Origin: Streptosporangiaceae bacterium
GTDB lineage: Bacteria > Actinomycetota > Actinomycetes > Streptosporangiales > Streptosporangiaceae
DNA length: 8,064 bases
Assembly: GCA_025934635.1 (NCBI GenBank)
Contig: JAICWX010000370.1
Location: 1-8,064, forward strand
Direction: 5' to 3'
Below are positions 1 through 8,064 of this stretch, in pieces. Numbering within the stretch: the stretch's first letter is position 1; every line of letters starts with the position of its first letter. The notes beneath the pieces were generated by a model that saw nothing but the letters and a program-made list of their open reading frames with translations, did no database searches and had not been told where the DNA came from. The position numbers were made by a program, and so were the translations under genes.

Positions 1-1339
1 AGACGACGTTCGGCACGTACCCCTCACGTTCGGTGTCGTCCGGGTCGAGCAGGCCCTCCGGCAGGTCGGCGATGACCCGCTCGGGCTGGTCGAGGTCGAG
101 CAGCATGGCGCCGACGGCGTACCGCCGCATCGGGCCGACGCCGTGGGTGAGCACCAGCCAGCCCGCCTCGGTCTCGATCGGCGACCCGCAGTTGCCGACC
201 TGCAGCATCTCCCACGGCGCGGACGGTTCCTGCAGGACTGCTGACCGGTCCCACGCGTAACCGTCGGCCGAGCTGGCGAGGCTGGTGCTCTCGCCGTCGG
301 AGCGGCACAGGGCGAGGTGCTGCCCGTTCACCTTGCGCGGGAACAGCGCCATGCCCTTGTTGCGGGCGGCCGGCCCGGCCAGCCGGTGAGCGCGGAACAC
401 CCGCAGGTCCGGGCTGGTGAGCAGGCGCGGGGCGATCCGCTGCCCGTCATAGGCCGTGTAGGTGGCACGGTACTCGACGGTCCCGTCATCGCGGGTGAAC
501 CGGGTGAACCGCGCGTCTTCCATGCCATTGCTCTCCTCGTCAGCGGACGGCAACAGGACCCGCTGCCCGAGGTCGGCGTCGCGGGCAAAGGAGGCCTCGT
601 AAGCAGACGACACGACCTTGCGCAGCAGGTCGGCGGTAGCGGCGGAACCCGTCCGGCTCAGCAGATCCCGGTGCGCTTCGGCTAGCGCCTGCTCGAGGTC
701 AGCGCCCTCGAACTCGGCGGGAAGGGCGCGCAAGACGGCCTTGGCGAGCTCATCGAGATGACCCTGGTCAGCGAGGACGGCATGCAGGTGTGCCCGGTGC
801 CACCTAGCCGGCGTGGTTTCCGCTGTGGAGGCCGGCAGGAGCCGTGGCTCGAAGGTCCACTGCGCGCCAGGGCCGACGACAGCCGAGCAGAAGCCGATCG
901 AGGAGATGTGACCTTCACCAATGCCCCGCAGGCTGAGTGCCATCCGGGCCTGGCCAGCGCCCAGCCCCCCTTGGTCGGGGCCCAGCACTGCGCTCGGGTT
1001 GCACAGGGCCGCGCCCTCCGTCGCGTACTCCGCGGTGAAGGTCGCTCCCAGCAGCAGCGTGCGCGCCGCCGTTAGCTCAAGCGCCCCCTCGACATTCGCG
1101 GAGACGATCGAGGCATGCCGTTGCAGGAGCGCCTGATAGTGGTGATGCCGACCGCCGAAGTCATGCAGCAGGGCTGCAGCCAGCCGCTCGACTTCGTCGT
1201 CGGCCAGGCTCATCACCCGGCCGACGACCTGGCTGGCCCGCGAACGGGTGCCATGCAGCTCCTCGCCAGGAAGGAACAGCCGGGCGATGACGCGGGCCGG
1301 ATCGGGTCGCAGCTCGGCCTCAATGCGGTGCGCGATCAC
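1..1339 (-). CDS. GH130-family glycosidase/phosphorylase, C-terminus outside window
   Basis: 446 residues are visible and the frame is open to the left edge. The GH130 family contains beta-mannoside phosphorylases and beta-mannosidases with a five-bladed propeller fold. Family hallmarks are EDAR near residues 274-277 (the Asp is the expected general acid), NKGMALFPRKVNG from about residue 327, GNCGSPIETEAGWLVLTHG followed by VGPMRRYAVGA, and EREGYVPNVV at 437-446. Family members I recall are about 490 residues, so roughly 45 C-terminal residues are missing. I chose the GTG start at 1339 because it overlaps the upstream TGA by 4 bp (GTGA) and gives the usual N-terminal sequence with RPDPARVIARLFLPGEE. 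It is the last visible gene of a glycosyltransferase/toroid/GH130 operon and is probably cytoplasmic, since no signal peptide is visible. Whether it is a phosphorylase or a hydrolase, and its sugar linkage, cannot be decided from the sequence. Confidence 0.9.
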   Translation of the reverse strand, partial: MIAHRIEAELRPDPARVIARLFLPGEELHGTRSRASQVVGRVMSLADDEVERLAAALLHDFGGRHHHYQALLQRHASIVSANVEGALELTAARTLLLGATFTAEYATEGAALCNPSAVLGPDQGGLGAGQARMALSLRGIGEGHISSIGFCSAVVGPGAQWTFEPRLLPASTAETTPARWHRAHLHAVLADQGHLDELAKAVLRALPAEFEGADLEQALAEAHRDLLSRTGSAATADLLRKVVSSAYEASFARDADLGQRVLLPSADEESNGMEDARFTRFTRDDGTVEYRATYTAYDGQRIAPRLLTSPDLRVFRAHRLAGPAARNKGMALFPRKVNGQHLALCRSDGESTSLASSADGYAWDRSAVLQEPSAPWEMLQVGNCGSPIETEAGWLVLTHGVGPMRRYAVGAMLLDLDQPERVIADLPEGLLDPDDTEREGYVPNVV

Positions 1340-2376
1340 TCGAGCTCGCCGATCCGGAATGCCTGCTGCGCCGTCGCGAGCAGGGCCAGGGTCGACTCGG
1401 CGCCCTGGTTCAGATTGCGGCCGTGGCGTTCCAGGCCGTCGTAGCCGCCTCCGGTACGCGGGTCAAACATCGGCGTGTCGCTGTCGTTGTCACCGAGGAA
1501 CCAGTCCCACGCTAGGCGGACGCCCGCCAGCCACCATGACTGCTGGGTGATCCGGAACGCGCTTGCGCAGGCGTCAGCGAGCGCGGCTACCTCTATGGGT
1601 TGCTGGTCGTAGCCGGGGCCGGCGTCGCCGCGGCCGCGGCCGCCCACCGGGGTCACGGACAGGTGGCCATCGCGGGTCTCGGTGCGCAGCAGGAACTCAA
1701 GCAGGCTCAGGCCGCGGCTAAGGGCCGGCTCATCGGCAAGGGCGTCACCCGCGACGATCAGCGCCTCAGCAATCGAGGCGTTCCCGTAACTCAGGCGCTC
1801 CTCTGGCCAGGGCCACCGGGGATCGTCGTCGGTCGGCTCGCCGATCGCGGCCAGCACGTCCGTGAGCAGCTGCCTGGCAGCTATTTCGTCCGGTCGTGCC
1901 CTGAGCAGTTCAGCAGCGCCCAGCGCGGCAAACGCCATCGGCCGGACGTACGGGGACCGGCACTGGGCCGCCAGGCGGAACCCGGCAAGCGCCCGGGCTC
2001 GCATCCCCGGCGTCTGCGCACTAGTAGCCGCGACACCCAGGCCCCATAGCGCCCTTCCCCACCAGTCGCCTACCGCGGCCTCGTCGCGCCACTGCCCGTC
2101 GACGGCCATCCTGTTGTGGCAGGCCCCCGTGGGATCGAGCGCGTCGAGGACAAAGGCGAGGTAACAGCGGGCCAGACGGCGGCCCCGTCCGGGCTCCGGC
2201 GCGCGGCACGCGACGACCAGCCCGCGGGCAGCATCGTCAACGCAGTAGCCGTGCTCGCGCCTGGGGACTGTGAGAAGGGCGTGCTCGAAGAGCCCGCGGT
2301 CGTCAGTGAGCCGTTCGAGGTGATCGAACACCGGCTGGTGAACGCTGCCCGCGGGAATCATGCTGCCCTCGCTCAC
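1336..2376 (-). CDS. Conserved (alpha/alpha)-toroid-like carbohydrate protein
   Basis: 346 residues with no signal peptide or membrane segment. The sequence is rich in amphipathic helices with conserved aromatic/acidic turns: EHGYCVDDAARGL (about 43-53), HNRMAVDGQWRDE then DWWGRALWGLG (87-114), WPWPEERLSYGNA (168-180), GYDQQPIEVAALADA (225-239) and FDPRTGGGYDGLER then NLNQGAESTLALL (304-333). This pattern resembles (alpha/alpha)6-barrel sugar enzymes such as the AGE-epimerase and GH-toroid folds, but I cannot name an activity. It is coupled to the GH130 gene by a 4-bp overlap, so the two probably act on the same mannoside-like glycan. The GTG at 2376 lies inside the IS flanking repeat. A second start, ATG at 2361, has GAGGG four bases upstream and would remove five residues. 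An IS110 element sits immediately 5', separating the gene from its operon promoter and the glycosyltransferase gene; the frame is undamaged. Confidence 0.8.
   Translation of the reverse strand: MSEGSMIPAGSVHQPVFDHLERLTDDRGLFEHALLTVPRREHGYCVDDAARGLVVACRAPEPGRGRRLARCYLAFVLDALDPTGACHNRMAVDGQWRDEAAVGDWWGRALWGLGVAATSAQTPGMRARALAGFRLAAQCRSPYVRPMAFAALGAAELLRARPDEIAARQLLTDVLAAIGEPTDDDPRWPWPEERLSYGNASIAEALIVAGDALADEPALSRGLSLLEFLLRTETRDGHLSVTPVGGRGRGDAGPGYDQQPIEVAALADACASAFRITQQSWWLAGVRLAWDWFLGDNDSDTPMFDPRTGGGYDGLERHGRNLNQGAESTLALLATAQQAFRIGELE
2372..2376. repeat. Left flanking copy of CTCAC (IS110 core and junction)
   Basis: Left copy of the 5-bp repeat bounding the element. Read on the minus strand it is GTGAG and supplies the GTG start of the toroid gene. 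CT (2372-2373) is the likely recombination core. Confidence 0.75.
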
Positions 2377-2385
2377 TGGTGCACC

Positions 2386-2595
2386 ATCTCTCTAACCGAG
2401 TCACTTGCTTGCCTGCTGGGTGAGAGGGTTCGGGTGCACCCCTGGTCCCCGCCGGGCCATTGCCATCCTCGCTCGACCTTCGAGGTCCAGCGTGAGTTCT
2501 GCGAGGCCCGGCGGCCCAGGACGCCCAGACTGGCTACAGGGCTATGCGCCAGTGAGCGCCGCTCAGTGAGCGACCGGGTGCGGCGTCCCGGGACC
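2386..2595 (+). ncRNA. IS110 bridge RNA (target- and donor-binding loops)
   Basis: Three structures lie in order in the left end. (a) A 5' stem-loop: CTCTC (2388-2392) pairs with GAGAG (2422-2426) and is continued by ACC (2395-2397) with GGT (2419-2421). (b) A target loop closed by GCCGGGCC (2451-2458) with GGCCCGGC (2505-2512). It contains CCTCGCT (2467-2473), an inner hairpin GACCT/AGGTC (2475-2487), and GCGTGAG (2490-2496). (c) A donor loop closed by 2515-2525 with 2582-2592 (10 pairs and one A-C mismatch). It contains ACAGGGC (2536-2542), an inner hairpin GCGC/GCGC (2546-2559), and CAGTGAG (2564-2570). The target guides equal the top strand left of the insertion (2367-2373) and the reverse complement of the right flank (3904-3910). 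The donor guides equal the right end (3895-3901) and the reverse complement of the left end (2372-2378). This is the arrangement known for IS621. The exact RNA ends are inferred. In the donor loop the bases aligned with the CT core do not match on the left-guide side. Confidence 0.85.
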
Positions 2596-2636
2596 ACCGG
2601 GTGTCTTCCAGCTGATGCAACAGCGAGAGGACAACC

Positions 2637-3878
2637 ATGAGTATCGACCAGAGTGCCGCCGCGCCGCGAGTCACGGCGGGAGTTGACTGGGCCAAGGACG
2701 ACCATGCCATCTGCGTGGCCGGGGACCAGGGCGAGGTCCTGGAGCGGTTCACCGTCCGCCACGACGCGGCCGGGCTGAGGCAGATGGCCGCCCGGCTGCT
2801 GCACGCCGGCGCAGCCCAGGTCGGCATCGAGCGCGGCGACGGGCCGGTCGTCGACACTCTGCTGCAGGCCGGGCTGACCGTGTTCGTGATCCCGCCGGGC
2901 CAGGTCAAGAACCTGCGCAGCCGGTACGGGTCGGCCGGCAGCAAGGACGACCGGTTCGACGCCTACGTGCTGGCCGACACGGTCCGCACCGACGCCCGCC
3001 GGCTGCGGCCCATGGAGACCGACAGCGAGCAGGCCACCGCCCTGCGCTCGACCGTCCGCGCCCGCCGGGACCTGGTCGGCCACCGGGTCGCCGCGGCCAA
3101 CCAGCTGCGCGCCCACCTGCAGATCGCGTTCCCGGCCGCCGCGGCGCTGTTCGCCGACGTTGACTCGGAGATCACCCTGGCGTTCCTGAGCCGCTTCACC
3201 ACCCAGGAGCAGGCGGACTGGCTCTCGCCCCTGCGGCTGGCCGCCTGGCTGAAGTCCGCCGCCTACAGCGGGAAGGCCGACCCCGCCGTCCTGCACGCCC
3301 GGCTGCTCGCCGCTCCCCGCGGCCAGGCCGGCCCGCACGCCAGCGTCCTTGCCGAGACCACCCTCGCCCTGGTCGCCGTCCTGCGGGTCCTGAAAGCCCA
3401 GATCAAGGCCCTGGCCGCCAGTATCGGCACCCAGCTGGCCGCCCACCCCGACGCCGCGGTCTTCACGTCCCTGCCCCGCTCCGGCACCATCCGCGCGGCC
3501 CGGCTGCTCGCCGAGATCGGCGACGCCCGCGGCCTCTTCCCCACCCGCGACTCCCTGACCTGCCTGGCCGGGGTCGCCCCCTCCACCCGGCAGTCGGGCA
3601 AGGTCAAGGCCGTCACGTTCCGGTGGGGAGCCGACAGGCAGCTCCGCGACGCCCTCTGCGACTTCGCCGGAGACTCCCGCCGCGCCAGCCCCTGGGCCGC
3701 CGACCTCTACGACAGGGCCACCGCCCGCGGCTGCGACCACCCGCACGCCGTCCGCATCCTCGCCCGGGCCTGGGCGCACGTCATCTGGCGATGCTGGCAA
3801 GACCACGTCCCCTACGACCCCGCCGCCCACAACAGCCTCCAGACAATCCTCCGCCAGCAACAGCCAATCGCCGCCTGA
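2637..3878 (+). CDS. IS110-family DEDD transposase (bridge-RNA-guided recombinase)
   Basis: 413 residues. The N-terminal RuvC-like domain carries the DEDD tetrad: D17 in VTAGVDWAKDD, E65 in QVGIERGDGP, and D105/D108 in GSKDDRFDAYVLAD. A helical middle part (about 120-270) is followed by the C-terminal Transposase_20 domain, with VFTSLPRSGTIRAARLLAEIG and LAGVAPSTRQSGK. Ser320 of the SG motif (or Ser316) is the candidate nucleophilic serine. The known mechanism is RNA-guided recombination between the element ends and a target; the protein would bind the RNA encoded just upstream. The ATG at 2637 has GAGAGG (2625-2630) six bases upstream. It is the only gene in the element and is convergent with the flanking host operon. 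No frameshift or missing catalytic residue is seen, and the length fits actinobacterial members. Confidence 0.95.
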   Translation: MSIDQSAAAPRVTAGVDWAKDDHAICVAGDQGEVLERFTVRHDAAGLRQMAARLLHAGAAQVGIERGDGPVVDTLLQAGLTVFVIPPGQVKNLRSRYGSAGSKDDRFDAYVLADTVRTDARRLRPMETDSEQATALRSTVRARRDLVGHRVAAANQLRAHLQIAFPAAAALFADVDSEITLAFLSRFTTQEQADWLSPLRLAAWLKSAAYSGKADPAVLHARLLAAPRGQAGPHASVLAETTLALVAVLRVLKAQIKALAASIGTQLAAHPDAAVFTSLPRSGTIRAARLLAEIGDARGLFPTRDSLTCLAGVAPSTRQSGKVKAVTFRWGADRQLRDALCDFAGDSRRASPWAADLYDRATARGCDHPHAVRILARAWAHVIWRCWQDHVPYDPAAHNSLQTILRQQQPIAA

Positions 3879-3889
3879 CGACGAAGGGG

Positions 3890-3895
3890 TTGACA
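3890..3895 (+). promoter_or_regulatory. TTGACA -35 box in the IS right end
   Basis: A perfect TTGACA lies 8 bp inside the right boundary, just after the transposase stop. In a circular right-end/left-end junction it would sit upstream of the left end, about 17-18 bp before GCACCAT (2381-2387). That is a poor -10, so the promoter is only half convincing. Junction promoters driving the bridge RNA are known in IS110 elements. In the inserted form no -10 follows in the host DNA. Confidence 0.5.
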
Positions 3896-3903
3896 CAGGG
3901 CAA

Positions 3904-3908
3904 CTCAC
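3904..3908. repeat. Right flanking copy of CTCAC (IS110 core and junction)
   Basis: Right copy of the 5-bp repeat. On the minus strand it is GTGAG and contains the TGA stop of the glycosyltransferase (3907-3905), so that gene keeps its native end after the insertion. Confidence 0.75.
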
Positions 3909-5035
3909 GCGGCCACCCTGGCCCTGATCAGCTCTCGGGCCAGGTCACGGTACTGGTCAGCGACGGTCGGCCACATCAGTTGGGGCGCTGTCGCGGTGGC
4001 CGCGGCGGCCATCCTCGTCATCACGTCCCGGCGCGTGGCCAGCGAGCGAAGCGCGGTAGCGATCGCGGCCGGGTCGCGGTGCGGCACGAGCACGCCCGCT
4101 CCCCCAGCGAGCAGCTCTACGGCGTGCGGGAACTGCGTCGCTACCACCGGCTTGCCGGCGGCCACCGCCTCGATGAGCACTCCCGAGGTGACCTGCTCGG
4201 CCGAGTCGTAGGGCAGCAGCACCACGTCGGCGGAGCGGATGAGGGAGGCCAGCGCGCTGGTGTTCCGGTAGTGACCCTCGAAGGTGACCCAGGGGCCGAG
4301 CTCGCCTTGCCGGACCTGCTCGCGAAGGCGATCACGGTAGGCATCGCCCTCGCGGAGCAGCACCTTGGGGTGCGTCTGGCCTGCGACCACGTAGCGCGGC
4401 AGGGGCTGGAGATCGCGCAGCATCGCCATTGCCTCGATGCCCCACTCGATGCCCTTGCCCGGGCCGAGCAGGCCCCACGTCAAGACGGTGAACTGCCCCG
4501 TTCGGAATGTCGGCTCCGCCATCGTCGTCTCCAGGGCGGGCGCGCCGTGCGCGATGACGGAGACCTTCGTCATGTCGGCGGCGTACCCGGCCGCAAGCCG
4601 TTCGCGCGCAGTCATCGTCATCGTGACGACGGCACCGGCCTTCGCCATCACCGACTCGAGGACCCGGCGCTGGTGTGGCGTCGGGTCGGCCAGCACGGTG
4701 TGCAGGACGACGACGCACGGCACCCGGACCTCGTCGAGCAGATGCAGGATCTCGCTGCCGTCGGCGCCGCCGTAAACGCCGTACTCATGTTGCACGATAG
4801 CGACGTCGCACAGGTTCAGCTGCGCAGCCGCACGGCGGATCGAGGCGGGGTCGCCTGGGATGATCTGCGCGACCACCTCGGCGCCGGATTGCGGTCCGGG
4901 CGCGTCGGCCAGGCGGACAACCCAGCCCTCATCGGTCGTGGAGTGCAGGAGGGCGCTACGCAGGGCGGCGGTGAAAGTAGCCAGTCCGCACTGGGTTGGC
5001 GGGAACGTGCTGACAAAACCGAATCGTGTGGTCAT
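3905..5035 (-). CDS. GT4-type (GT-B) glycosyltransferase
   Basis: 376 residues, GT-B fold, nucleotide-sugar dependent by family. The N-terminal acceptor domain begins FGFVSTFPPTQCGLATF with a glycine-rich loop; HEYGVYGG lies at 83-90 and IAHGAP at 161-166. The donor domain begins near 181 (TVLTWGLLGPGKGIEWGIEA) and carries VVAGQTHPK, FEGHY, and then LPYDSAEQVTSGVLIEAVAA with Glu280 and Glu289. The usual GT4 E-x7-E motif is therefore altered, with E-x8-E spacing. FPHAVELLAGGAGVLV follows. No signal peptide or membrane helix is visible. The ATG is preceded by GGAAGG, ten bases upstream. It is the first gene of the operon with the toroid and GH130 proteins and was originally coupled to the former by a GTGA overlap; an IS110 element now separates them. 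The conserved neighbours suggest a role in making or turning over a mannose-containing glycan, but donor and acceptor are not determined. Confidence 0.9.
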   Translation of the reverse strand: MTTRFGFVSTFPPTQCGLATFTAALRSALLHSTTDEGWVVRLADAPGPQSGAEVVAQIIPGDPASIRRAAAQLNLCDVAIVQHEYGVYGGADGSEILHLLDEVRVPCVVVLHTVLADPTPHQRRVLESVMAKAGAVVTMTMTARERLAAGYAADMTKVSVIAHGAPALETTMAEPTFRTGQFTVLTWGLLGPGKGIEWGIEAMAMLRDLQPLPRYVVAGQTHPKVLLREGDAYRDRLREQVRQGELGPWVTFEGHYRNTSALASLIRSADVVLLPYDSAEQVTSGVLIEAVAAGKPVVATQFPHAVELLAGGAGVLVPHRDPAAIATALRSLATRRDVMTRMAAAATATAPQLMWPTVADQYRDLARELIRARVAA

Positions 5036-6004: not shown

Positions 6005-6574
6005 TCATCGGCACACGCTGGGCTGCGGCTCGCCCGGAGCGTAATGCGTCCATTCTGCCTTTGTTGGTGGGCCGGCATCGGCACAGAGTGCTGCGTACGG
6101 GTTAGCGAAAAGCGGCATTTGCCATAGCCGCACGGTGCCGTCGGTGTCGGCCGTGGCCAGGAGCGTGCCGTCCGGGCTGAAGGCCACGCCGGACACGCTC
6201 CCCGTGCCGGCACCGGCCGGGAGGGGAACGCCGACGGCCTGCCTGCTGGCCAGATCCCACAGCCGAGCATTTCCGTCGCTGTAGGCGGCAGCCAGCAGCT
6301 TGCCGTTCGGGCTGAACGCCACCCCGTTCACGCCGCCGCTGGTGACGGCCGGGAAGGGAGCGCCGACGGGCTGCCCGCTGCCCGGGTTCCACAGCCGCAC
6401 GGTGCCGTCACCGTCCGCGCTGGCCAGCAGTTTGCCGTCCGGGCTGAACGCCACCCCTAGCACGCTGCCCGCAGGGTCGGCCGGGAGGGGAGCGCCGACG
6501 GCTTGCCTGGTGGCCAGATCCCACAGCCGTACGTGCCCGTCCGTGTCGGCGGTGGCCAGCAGCGTGCTGTCCGG
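6005..6574 (-). pseudogene. C-terminal WD40 blades displaced by a frameshift
   Basis: This is the natural C-terminus of the WD40 protein, in a different frame from the upstream part. Across the break the text runs ...GGSVLRVAFS | PDSTLLATADTDGHVRLWD, so one blade is split exactly. Three more blades follow, then a tail with PYAALCADAGPPTKAEW and YAPGEPQPSVC before the stop at 6005. An LC...G...EW..Y.P....C tail is common at the end of actinobacterial WD40 proteins with N-terminal kinase or NTPase modules. The cause is CCGG at 6571-6574, where nearly every sister repeat has CCGGG (one has CCGGA): one base is missing. This frame stays open upstream to a GTG at 6769, but that part is out of frame with the blades. 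There is no independent start or RBS, so I treat it as the disconnected end of the same gene; a sequencing error is possible. Confidence 0.75.
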
Positions 6575-8064
6575 CTGAACGCCACCCTTAGCACGCTGCC
6601 CCCAGGGTCGGCCGGGAGGGGAGCGCTGGACGCTTGCCTGGTGTCCAGATCCCACGTTCGCACGGTGCCGTCGGTGTCGGCGGTGGCCAGCAGCTTGCCG
6701 TCCGGGCTGAACGCAACCGCGTTCCGTCCGGAAAAGCCGCCTGAAGCCTGCCCGGTGACCGGGTTCCACAGCCCAATGGTGGTGTCGCTATTGGCGCTGG
6801 CCAGCAGCTTGCCGTCTGGGCTGAACGCCACCCCATTCACGCGGCTCCCCGGGCCGGCTTCAGCCGGAAGGACGCCAGCGGATTGCCGGGAAGCCGGATC
6901 CCACAGCCGCACGGTGCCATCGCCGCCGGCGGCGGCTAGCAGCTTGCCGTCGGGGCTGAACACCACCCCATTCACGCCGCCGGTGACGGGCGGGAGGGGA
7001 GCGCCAGGAGTTCGCCGGGTGGCCGGGTTCCAGAGCCGCACGGTGCCGTCGCCGCCGGCGGTGGCCAGCAGCTTGCCGTCCGGGCTGAACGTCACCCCGT
7101 TCAGGCCGCCCGTGGCGGCAGCCAGGACGGGAGCGCCGACGGCCTGCCGGGTGGCCGGGTTCCACAGCCGCACATACCCGGCTGTGTCGGCTGTGGCCAG
7201 CAGCGTACCGTCCGGACTGAACGCCACCCCATACACGCTGCCGTTGGTGACAACCGGGAAGGGAACGCCGACGGCCCGCCGGGTCGCCGGGTTCCAGAGC
7301 CGCACGGTGCCGTCGATGTCGGCGGTGGCCAGCAGCTTGCCGTCCGGGCTGAACACCACCCCGTACAGGCCGCTGGGGGCAGCGGGGAAAGGGCCACCGA
7401 GGGCCTGCCGGGTGGCCGGGTTCCACAGCCGTACGTACCCGGCCGTGTCGACGGCGGCCAGCAGCTTGCCGTCCGGGCTGAACGCGACCCCGTTCAGGCT
7501 CGGCCCCCCGCCCCTGCCCGTGCCTTGTGGGCTGGTGCTAGCGAAGACGCGAGCGCCGACGGCCCGGTGGCTGGCGGGGTCCCACAGCCGTAGGTACCCG
7601 TCCGTGTCGGCGGTGGCCAGCAGCTTGCCGTCCGGGCTGAACGTCATCGATATCACGCCGCCCCCAGGGTCGGCCGGGAGGGGAGCGCCGACGGCCTGCC
7701 GGGTGGCCGGGTTCCACAGCAGCACGTTGCCCTCGGCGTCGGCGGTGGCCAGGACTTTGCCGTCCGGGCTGAACGCCACCCCGTACGCGCCTCCCCCCGA
7801 TCCGGTATCAACCGGGAGGGGAGCGCCGACGGCCTGCCCGGTGGCCGGGTTCCACAGCCGTACATAGCCGTCGCCGTAGGCGGCGGCCAGCAGCTTGCCG
7901 TCCGGGCTGAATGCTGTCTGTTGCACGCCGGGGTTGGCTGGACCAAAGTAGGTGGCTGGATCACCGGGCAGGATGCCGTCTTGCTGCTGCTCGATCAGCA
8001 AGCTCGCCAGGACGGGAGCGCCGACGGCCTGCCGGGTGGCCGGGTTCCACAGCCGCACATACCC
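6120..8064 (-). repeat. Intragenic tandem array of about 130-bp WD40 units
   Basis: About 15 units with strongly conserved nucleotide blocks. On the plus strand these are CAGCTTGCCGTCCGGGCTGA (and close variants), CACAGCCGCACGGTGCCGTC and GCCGACGGCCTGCCGGGTGG. Unit length varies from about 115 to 160 bp through the inter-blade linkers. Synonymous sites are conserved too, suggesting recent duplication or gene conversion. Confidence 0.85.
6457..8064 (-). CDS. WD40-repeat protein, N-terminus outside window, frameshifted
   Basis: The frame is open through the right edge, so the apparent GTG at 8058 is not the true start. It contains ten complete blades and partial ones of the form AFSPDGKLLATADTDGTVRLW followed by NPATRQAVGAPLPA, about 42-53 residues each. 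Blades carry the expected Asp (in DG/DT turns) and LW ends of beta-propeller repeats. Together with the four blades past the frameshift this makes about 15, enough for two seven-bladed propellers. WD40 propellers are protein-interaction scaffolds. In actinobacteria such arrays usually follow an N-terminal Ser/Thr kinase, nSTAND/NACHT NTPase or TIR/peptidase domain, but that part is not visible, so the effector is unknown. A one-base deletion near 6573 turns the frame into an unrelated tail ending at TAG (6459-6457), losing the last blades and the Cys-containing C-terminus. No promoter is visible in the window. Confidence 0.85.
   Translation of the reverse strand, partial: GYVRLWNPATRQAVGAPVLASLLIEQQQDGILPGDPATYFGPANPGVQQTAFSPDGKLLAAAYGDGYVRLWNPATGQAVGAPLPVDTGSGGGAYGVAFSPDGKVLATADAEGNVLLWNPATRQAVGAPLPADPGGGVISMTFSPDGKLLATADTDGYLRLWDPASHRAVGARVFASTSPQGTGRGGGPSLNGVAFSPDGKLLAAVDTAGYVRLWNPATRQALGGPFPAAPSGLYGVVFSPDGKLLATADIDGTVRLWNPATRRAVGVPFPVVTNGSVYGVAFSPDGTLLATADTAGYVRLWNPATRQAVGAPVLAAATGGLNGVTFSPDGKLLATAGGDGTVRLWNPATRRTPGAPLPPVTGGVNGVVFSPDGKLLAAAGGDGTVRLWDPASRQSAGVLPAEAGPGSRVNGVAFSPDGKLLASANSDTTIGLWNPVTGQASGGFSGRNAVAFSPDGKLLATADTDGTVRTWDLDTRQASSAPLPADPGGSVLRVAFSRTARCWPPPTRTGTYGCGIWPPGKPSALPSRPTLRAAC

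Follow-up and report, generated by a model that had tools for sequence, protein, structure and literature searches.

Predicted bridge RNAs of an IS110-family group read start-codon motifs, and an antisense reading frame spans the elements

Taken together, our findings lead us to propose that in a group of IS110-family insertion sequences the right target guide of the bridge RNA programs insertion at start codons, and that an antisense path for ribosomes, together with a start codon and Shine-Dalgarno (SD) sequence of the element's own, keeps the host gene translated. We consider this model probable. It was built from one element in an 8,064-nucleotide stretch of DNA from a Streptosporangiaceae bacterium (the window) and from the relatives of that element. 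In these elements the guides covary with the DNA that they read, the target holds a start-codon motif, a long frame lies open on the strand opposite the transposase, codons that would interrupt this frame are depleted, and an SD-like stretch usually precedes the new start; frame and SD-like stretch are absent from related control elements. Restored expression of the host gene is what we infer from this pattern.

Judged by its sequence, the window element is an IS110-group insertion sequence of the IS110 family.

2372 to 3905, plus strand: the IS110-group element, with CT cores at 2372-2373 (left) and 3904-3905 (right) and edges supported by comparison of within-genome copies
2637 to 3878, plus strand: DEDD transposase/recombinase of 413 aa, with PF01548 and PF02371 and residues D17, E65, D105, D108 and S320
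2365 to 2371, no strand assigned: left target flank, GCCCTCG
3906 to 3910, no strand assigned: right target flank, CACGC, in which the host start codon GTG occupies 3908-3906 of the minus strand

The recombinase has the DEDD RuvC-like and Transposase_20 domains and the catalytic serine of the IS110 group, and the only PDB sequence that it matched was IS621. D105, D108 and S320 were placed by alignment to IS621 and D17 and E65 by motif, and all five are present in 58 of 58 relatives. The end lengths also agree with this group: the left end, which holds the bridge RNA, measures 265 nt and the right end about 25 nt. Copies within a genome part at the predicted edges, give or take bases common to their targets. 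At 3890-3895 the right end reads TTGACA, as it does in many relatives, a possible -35 box of a circle-junction promoter; no clear -10 box was seen beside it by eye. Elsewhere in the window, a long minus-strand frame with WD40 repeats occupies 6457-8064. Among the relatives, L132, L134 and L135 differ in how many GAGGAGCTGCCT repeats precede the transposase match, within what is predicted to be the N-terminus of the transposase, and L027 has a similar stretch (CGGCATGAGTTCAGGCACTG) in both flanks, as if a repeat lay on each side of the element.

Relatives came from a genome scan (79 loci) and a viral scan (one locus). Matches were present in 12 of 12 genomes reached through loci, in 7 of 394 genomes of a class, in 8 of 62 and 15 of 215 genomes of two genera and in 2 of 35 of one family; three of the 35 genomes in the family of G003 matched at 1e-60, and on this comparison the mobile IS110 of Frankia casuarinae may or may not belong to the present family. 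The transposase matched in 128 of 138 sequences (137 loci and the window). We excluded matches below 44% identity and any locus whose left end could not be recognised, a choice that may favour family-like ends. Ends were detected in 71 non-redundant elements, 11 of which were removed for an uncertain right core (nine broken ones and the intact L029 and L104). Sixty were kept, 58 of them with an intact transposase (48 different transposases). The right flank is CA(T/C) in 46 of these 58, which on the other strand is ATG or GTG followed by AG; we refer to them as start-flank elements and to the other 12 as controls. Guides were readable in 54 of the 58 (exceptions L050 and L097-L099), target guides were tested in 39 of the 46 start-flank elements, and the consensus fold was built from 20 left ends hand-picked by the author. 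Twelve plasmid regions were added: L138, ten that were examined, and L145, left out with its transposase in pieces.

The left end of the window element is predicted to specify a two-loop RNA.

2441 to 2601, plus strand: structured region of the bridge RNA, with outer stem 2441-2446/2596-2601
2449 to 2514, plus strand: target-binding loop, with closing stem 2449-2463/2501-2514 and inner hairpin 2475-2478/2484-2487
2465 to 2473, plus strand: left target guide, matching left flank and core at 2467-2473; weak across the family
2490 to 2496, plus strand: right target guide GCGTGAG, reading the core plus target positions +1 to +5
2497 to 2498, plus strand: handshake guide TT, pairing with AA, the last two bases of the right end
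2516 to 2591, plus strand: donor-binding loop, with closing stem 2516-2525/2582-2591
2536 to 2542, plus strand: left donor guide ACAGGGC
2564 to 2573, plus strand: right donor guide CAGTGAG with handshake CGA

A first-pass annotation of this DNA had read four 7-nt guide matches out of the single insertion, and all four lie where it put them. CCTCGCT (2467-2473) equals the left flank plus core (2367-2373), GCGTGAG (2490-2496) is the reverse complement of core plus right flank (3904-3910), ACAGGGC (2536-2542) equals the right end (3895-3901), and CAGTGAG (2564-2570), of which there is a second copy at 2550-2556, is the reverse complement of 2372-2378. The four together arose in none of 100,000 first-order Markov resamples of 2386-2595 and three of them in six, in keeping with its judgement that they exceed chance, and the two loops with their left and right guides have the order and polarity of the IS621 bridge RNA, as it had also said. 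Pairing extends further than it stated: 2490-2498 (GCGTGAGTT) pairs at 9 of 9 positions with the right junction and 2564-2573 (CAGTGAGCGA) at 10 of 10 with the left junction, the added bases sitting where IS621 carries handshake guides. The left donor match stops 2 nt before the CT core (RNA TA, DNA AA); in the window this guide falls short of the core, a point of IS621 detail that we do not take as decisive for the family.

Folded as a single sequence, the left end gave an unconvincing result (z -1.6, with 16 of 200 shuffles as stable), and covariation was used instead. In the consensus fold, 12 of the 41 counted pairs changed on both sides, compared with 5.3 in shuffles, none of 500 of which scored as high; 96.7% of cells were paired, compared with 32-47% when partners were slid, and both closing stems contain compensatory changes. 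An Rfam search found nothing. The guides in turn covary with DNA, each target guide matching its own flank better than those of shuffled partners (0 of 20,000 in both cases). For the right target guide the agreement was 5.46 of 7 against 4.29 shuffled over 39 elements, with values of 0.95, 0.95 and 0.92 at +3, +4 and +5 (shuffled 0.57, 0.58 and 0.50) and none above background at +6 (0.15 against 0.16). The left target guide reached 3.82 of 7 against 3.13, its signal coming mainly from -4 and -3. In the donor loop the left guide followed the right end (0 of 2,000 shuffles). The first handshake base agreed in 0.83 against 0.43 shuffled (54 elements, 0 of 20,000), the second in 0.52 against 0.45. 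On this comparative evidence, which includes the covariation checks proposed by the first-pass annotation, the bridge RNA that it placed in the left end is supported; this RNA is predicted to be made and bound and to serve in recombination.

Read from the same comparisons, most of the target specificity comes from the right target guide, over the five bases that follow the core. The left one predicts poorly: three copies in Pseudonocardia dioxanivorans that carry one RNA have left flanks matching it at 3, 4 and 1 of 7 positions. The first-pass annotation had held that unchanged guides at differing sites would speak against its reading, and for the left target guide they partly do: CTGCTCGCT is common to many elements with differing left flanks. 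Its view that the target can be decoded from one insertion is sound on the right, where the guide predicts the flank to +5; because the left guide is weak, the decoded target GCCCTCG-CT-CACGC was over-read on its left side. It recognised the four guides and missed the handshake guides, the antisense frame and the start-codon character of the target.

The right target guide spells xx(A/G)TGAG, in which (A/G)TGAG represents an opposite-strand start codon, and in start-flank elements the host start codon is always antisense to the transposase, so that orientation is fixed. In the window the insertion separates two genes of an operon.

1336 to 2376, minus strand: host gene that follows the insertion, complete at 346 aa when read from the GTG of the element
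3905 to 5035, minus strand: glycosyltransferase gene upstream in the operon, whose pre-insertion TGA stop overlapped the host GTG

The empty site is GCGTGAGCG, a GTGA stop-start overlap, and the window insertion is at translation initiation signals, as in IS900-like elements that hit start codons. An uninterrupted counterpart with the same pair of neighbours, L143 from the genome reached through Nonomuraea endophytica L048, has the glycosyltransferase TGA (1508-1510) overlapping an ATG (1507-1509) as ATGA. Homologues of the 346-aa protein (best 120 of 6960) are nearly all 341-352 aa long and most are covered over 97-100%; several of the matches listed are named Streptosporangiaceae. A GH130-type phosphorylase gene at 2-1339, minus strand, forms a co-directional cluster with these two genes.

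Across the 46 start-flank elements, the frame behind the new start runs for at least 100 codons in 28, is cut by a contig end in four and spans 11-98 codons in 14. The length of a host-flank frame was rejected as proof of a gene start, because G+C-rich DNA is open in other frames too, and Pfam was used instead. A Pfam match was found in 26 of the 28 long frames read from the element's start. It begins at profile position 1-6 in 20 of the 26, and in 16 of these 20 it also begins within the first 45 residues; those genes therefore look whole from the element's start. L044 is a clear insertion inside a gene. In the database, P0001 (887 aa) is a TPR-repeat protein that continues into a similar antisense frame, with MVHQ as its last residues; inspection by eye suggests insertion at an internal ATGAGC.

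Three further features lie on the strand opposite the transposase.

2374 to 2376, minus strand: GTG brought by the element as start codon of the host gene; it shares bases with the terminal TGA of the antisense frame
2380 to 2394, minus strand: SD-like stretch TAGAGAGATGGTGCA before the new GTG, at -7.8 kcal/mol middling for the family
2373 to 3908, minus strand: antisense open frame of 511 codons that begins at the host GTG, traverses the entire element and closes with the TGA at 2375-2373

The new start codon is GTG in 40 of the start-flank elements and ATG in six. Controls also have GTG or ATG at the left end, and it is thus the SD-like stretch and the frame, not the codon, that separate the two classes. 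GGAG, GAGG or AGGA precedes the new start in 32 of 46 start-flank elements and in 0 of 12 controls. Pairing with the anti-SD averages -9.75 kcal/mol, compared with -5.69 shuffled and -1.56 in controls. When only distinct ends are counted, the motif is present in 21 of 32 with a mean of -9.37, and eight control ends average -1.85, one of them at -8.1. On the host side, pairing is -7.22 versus -5.17 kcal/mol shuffled in 45 start-flank elements, with no gain in the 12 controls (-4.83 versus -4.96).

The antisense frame crosses both transposase and bridge RNA and ends on a TGA that overlaps the new GTG or ATG. It is open over the full element, without a start of its own as in the hed type, in 43 of the 46 intact start-flank elements (exceptions L004, L022 and L033) and in none of the 12 intact elements with other flanks. 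Because the frame shares its codon register with the transposase gene, any TTA, CTA or TCA codon in that gene would interrupt it. Such codons number seven in the 46 start-type transposases, 44 of which are free of them, as against 50 in the 12 controls, none of which is free; codon use in long frames of the flanks predicts 3.1 per gene and 2.1 of 46 genes free. Within their codon families, CTA makes up 4 of 1877 and TCA 2 of 496 in start-type transposases (21 of 351 and 10 of 87 in the CAG clade described below), and the depletion is codon-specific, with GCA, GGA, CCA, ACA, GTA and CGA together at 753 of 9620. Over the left end this frame averages 0.15 stops, whereas the two alternative antisense frames average 2.09 and 1.70. 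Forty-four of the 46 start-flank elements have a left end of length 1 mod 3, as do 22 of the 24 distinct lengths; part of this length is transposase N-terminus, which necessarily comes in multiples of three. Where the alignment starts at residue 1-2 (21 elements), eight of nine distinct lengths are 1 mod 3. Control left ends spread over the three classes as 7, 3 and 2 of 12. Right ends measure 10, 16, 22 or 25.

The frame could be kept open for its product. On this account, which follows the proposal made for IS900 hed in the accessible part of PMC8141618, it encodes a functional protein, start targeting provides its expression and rescue of the host gene is a by-product. Beyond that precedent, the openness of the frame fits, and its translation is matched by 21 database proteins, which means that gene callers do choose frames of this kind. 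However, codon analysis looked for constraint on the antisense protein beyond openness and did not show it, the C-terminal part, opposite the bridge RNA, changes length along with the left end, and the SD ahead of the host gene is left unexplained. We regard a functional protein as possible but doubtful, and antisense passage of ribosomes as probably mattering more than the peptide. We give less credence still to antisense control, in which host transcription through the element would damp transposase and bridge RNA. The constant antisense orientation of the host start codon is what it would explain, but it needs no open frame, SD or left-end start codon, yet all are present. That these are ordinary IS110 elements, their frame arising from high G+C and their start-codon flank from chance in a short guide, is barely credible, for although codon-register antisense frames are commonly open in G+C-rich genes and some insertions lie off gene starts, relatives of nearly equal G+C lack the frame (0.683 versus 0.695), only frame-stopping codons are depleted and nearly all left-end lengths keep to one class.

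On a tree of the 58 transposases the target label switches three times, in the CAG clade (nine rows), in L031/L032 (CT-CCC) and in L013 (CT-CGTCCC). The frame follows the label in a mean of 2.6 of three independent pairs over 200 random pairings and never goes the opposite way; the median p is 0.25, three switches being too few for significance. The SD-like stretch is absent from L013 and L031 too, and in L013 the right target guide changed together with the flank. In L138 (Nonomuraea) guide and flank both read CAGTC, and the element has one frame-breaking codon and a shortened frame; by eye, its site resembles a resolvase gene. A sister clade (L102, L118, L119, L120, L121, L122, L126, L130 and L043) has targets like CTGA..(C/G)T-CAG, some with a GT core and with CTGA in the left guides too, and may be aiming at stop codons or convergent gene ends.

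The ten plasmid IS110 elements examined are 34-65% identical, and six have a CAT flank (L139, L141, L144, L146, L147 and L148, two of them from Variovorax, in the Betaproteobacteria). These six hold 0, 0, 1, 0, 0 and 0 frame-breaking codons and the other four 3, 3, 0 and 6. The antisense frame of five of the six extends beyond the element to a stop that overlaps an ATG or GTG; the sixth, L144, is truncated on the left, where it adjoins an IS3 gene. L148 (Streptomyces, 39.6%) supplies the ATG from which lanC is annotated (TAATGAG), and the stop of the gene upstream was part of an ATGA overlap. Of the five complete CAT-flank elements it alone has a gene that follows from the new start; frames of 13-22 codons follow in the other four, and L141 is by annotation inside a plus-strand gene. 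Together with the 14 short frames above, these cases mean that some sites are not gene starts. What the guide recognises is a motif; part of the family shows a preference for gene starts, to which subsequent loss of harmful insertions may contribute.

Going by the title of a 1997 paper by Doran, IS900 of Mycobacterium avium subsp. paratuberculosis is said to target translation initiation signals. Its hed, a whole-element antisense frame without ribosome-binding site or start codon according to the accessible text of PMC8141618, is a precedent for the frame described here. IS900, compared by description only, thus shares with the present elements the IS110 family, the initiation-signal target and a whole-element antisense frame lacking its own ribosome-binding site and start. 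Its motif, CATGNNNNNNTCTCCTT, suggests insertion between SD and start codon, whereas insertion here is directly behind the start codon and the element brings a new start and SD. On its opposite strand the motif quoted for IS900 around position six (ACCTTTCTT..., PMC8141618) is the SD-like AAGAAAGGT; IS900, too, may supply its host gene with an SD.

As far as the accessible parts of PMC11208160 and PMC11208158 describe IS621, it has in common with the present elements a DEDD/Ser recombinase, a left-end RNA with two loops, a CT core and handshake guides, which in IS621 pair with the other partner's DNA after strand exchange (PMC11208158). Unlike in IS621, the left target guide here is weak, the left donor guide stops short of the core, and a start-codon target, antisense frame and SD are present; start codons play no part in the accessible text, and the phrase 'start codon' does not occur in either paper. 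The seekRNA of IS1111/IS110 (PMC11187229) is likewise a transposase-bound RNA from a non-coding end that picks the target, and its accessible text describes no start-codon target or host-gene rescue, 'start codon' occurring once, in the methods. In the titles and abstracts of the open PMC papers listed by our searches, we found no report of a replacement start codon or SD and none of a bridge RNA guide that explains start-codon targeting.

In the model that we prefer, the right target guide would direct insertion to opposite-strand start-codon motifs, in the window to the GTGA overlap of two operon genes. Ribosomes starting at the host start codon, or coupled from the upstream gene, would cross the element on the antisense frame, stop at its TGA and restart on the host gene with the help of the element's SD; such restarting would avoid polarity and make the insertion tolerable. 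Several observations count against rescue. According to the accessible text of PMC11946415, auxotrophy resulted in Frankia when an IS110 element, which may or may not belong to the present family, inserted close to the GTG of pyrE. The short frames behind the new start, the intragenic L044, and L004, L022 and L033 belong on the same side. We are evenly divided on the broader proposal that this is a class of RNA-guided elements that inserts at start codons or stop-start overlaps, swaps in its own start and keeps the whole antisense path open, the insertion being nearly silent.

These findings link a guide RNA to the old observation of IS110 elements hitting translation starts. They describe a non-coding guide RNA that is under three constraints at once, those of structure, of guide and of an antisense reading frame. 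The natural cases of retargeting, L013, L031/L032 and L138, make the link between start codon and frame directly testable. A natural insertion that may spare its target gene would have a property that is wanted for genome editing with bridge RNAs.
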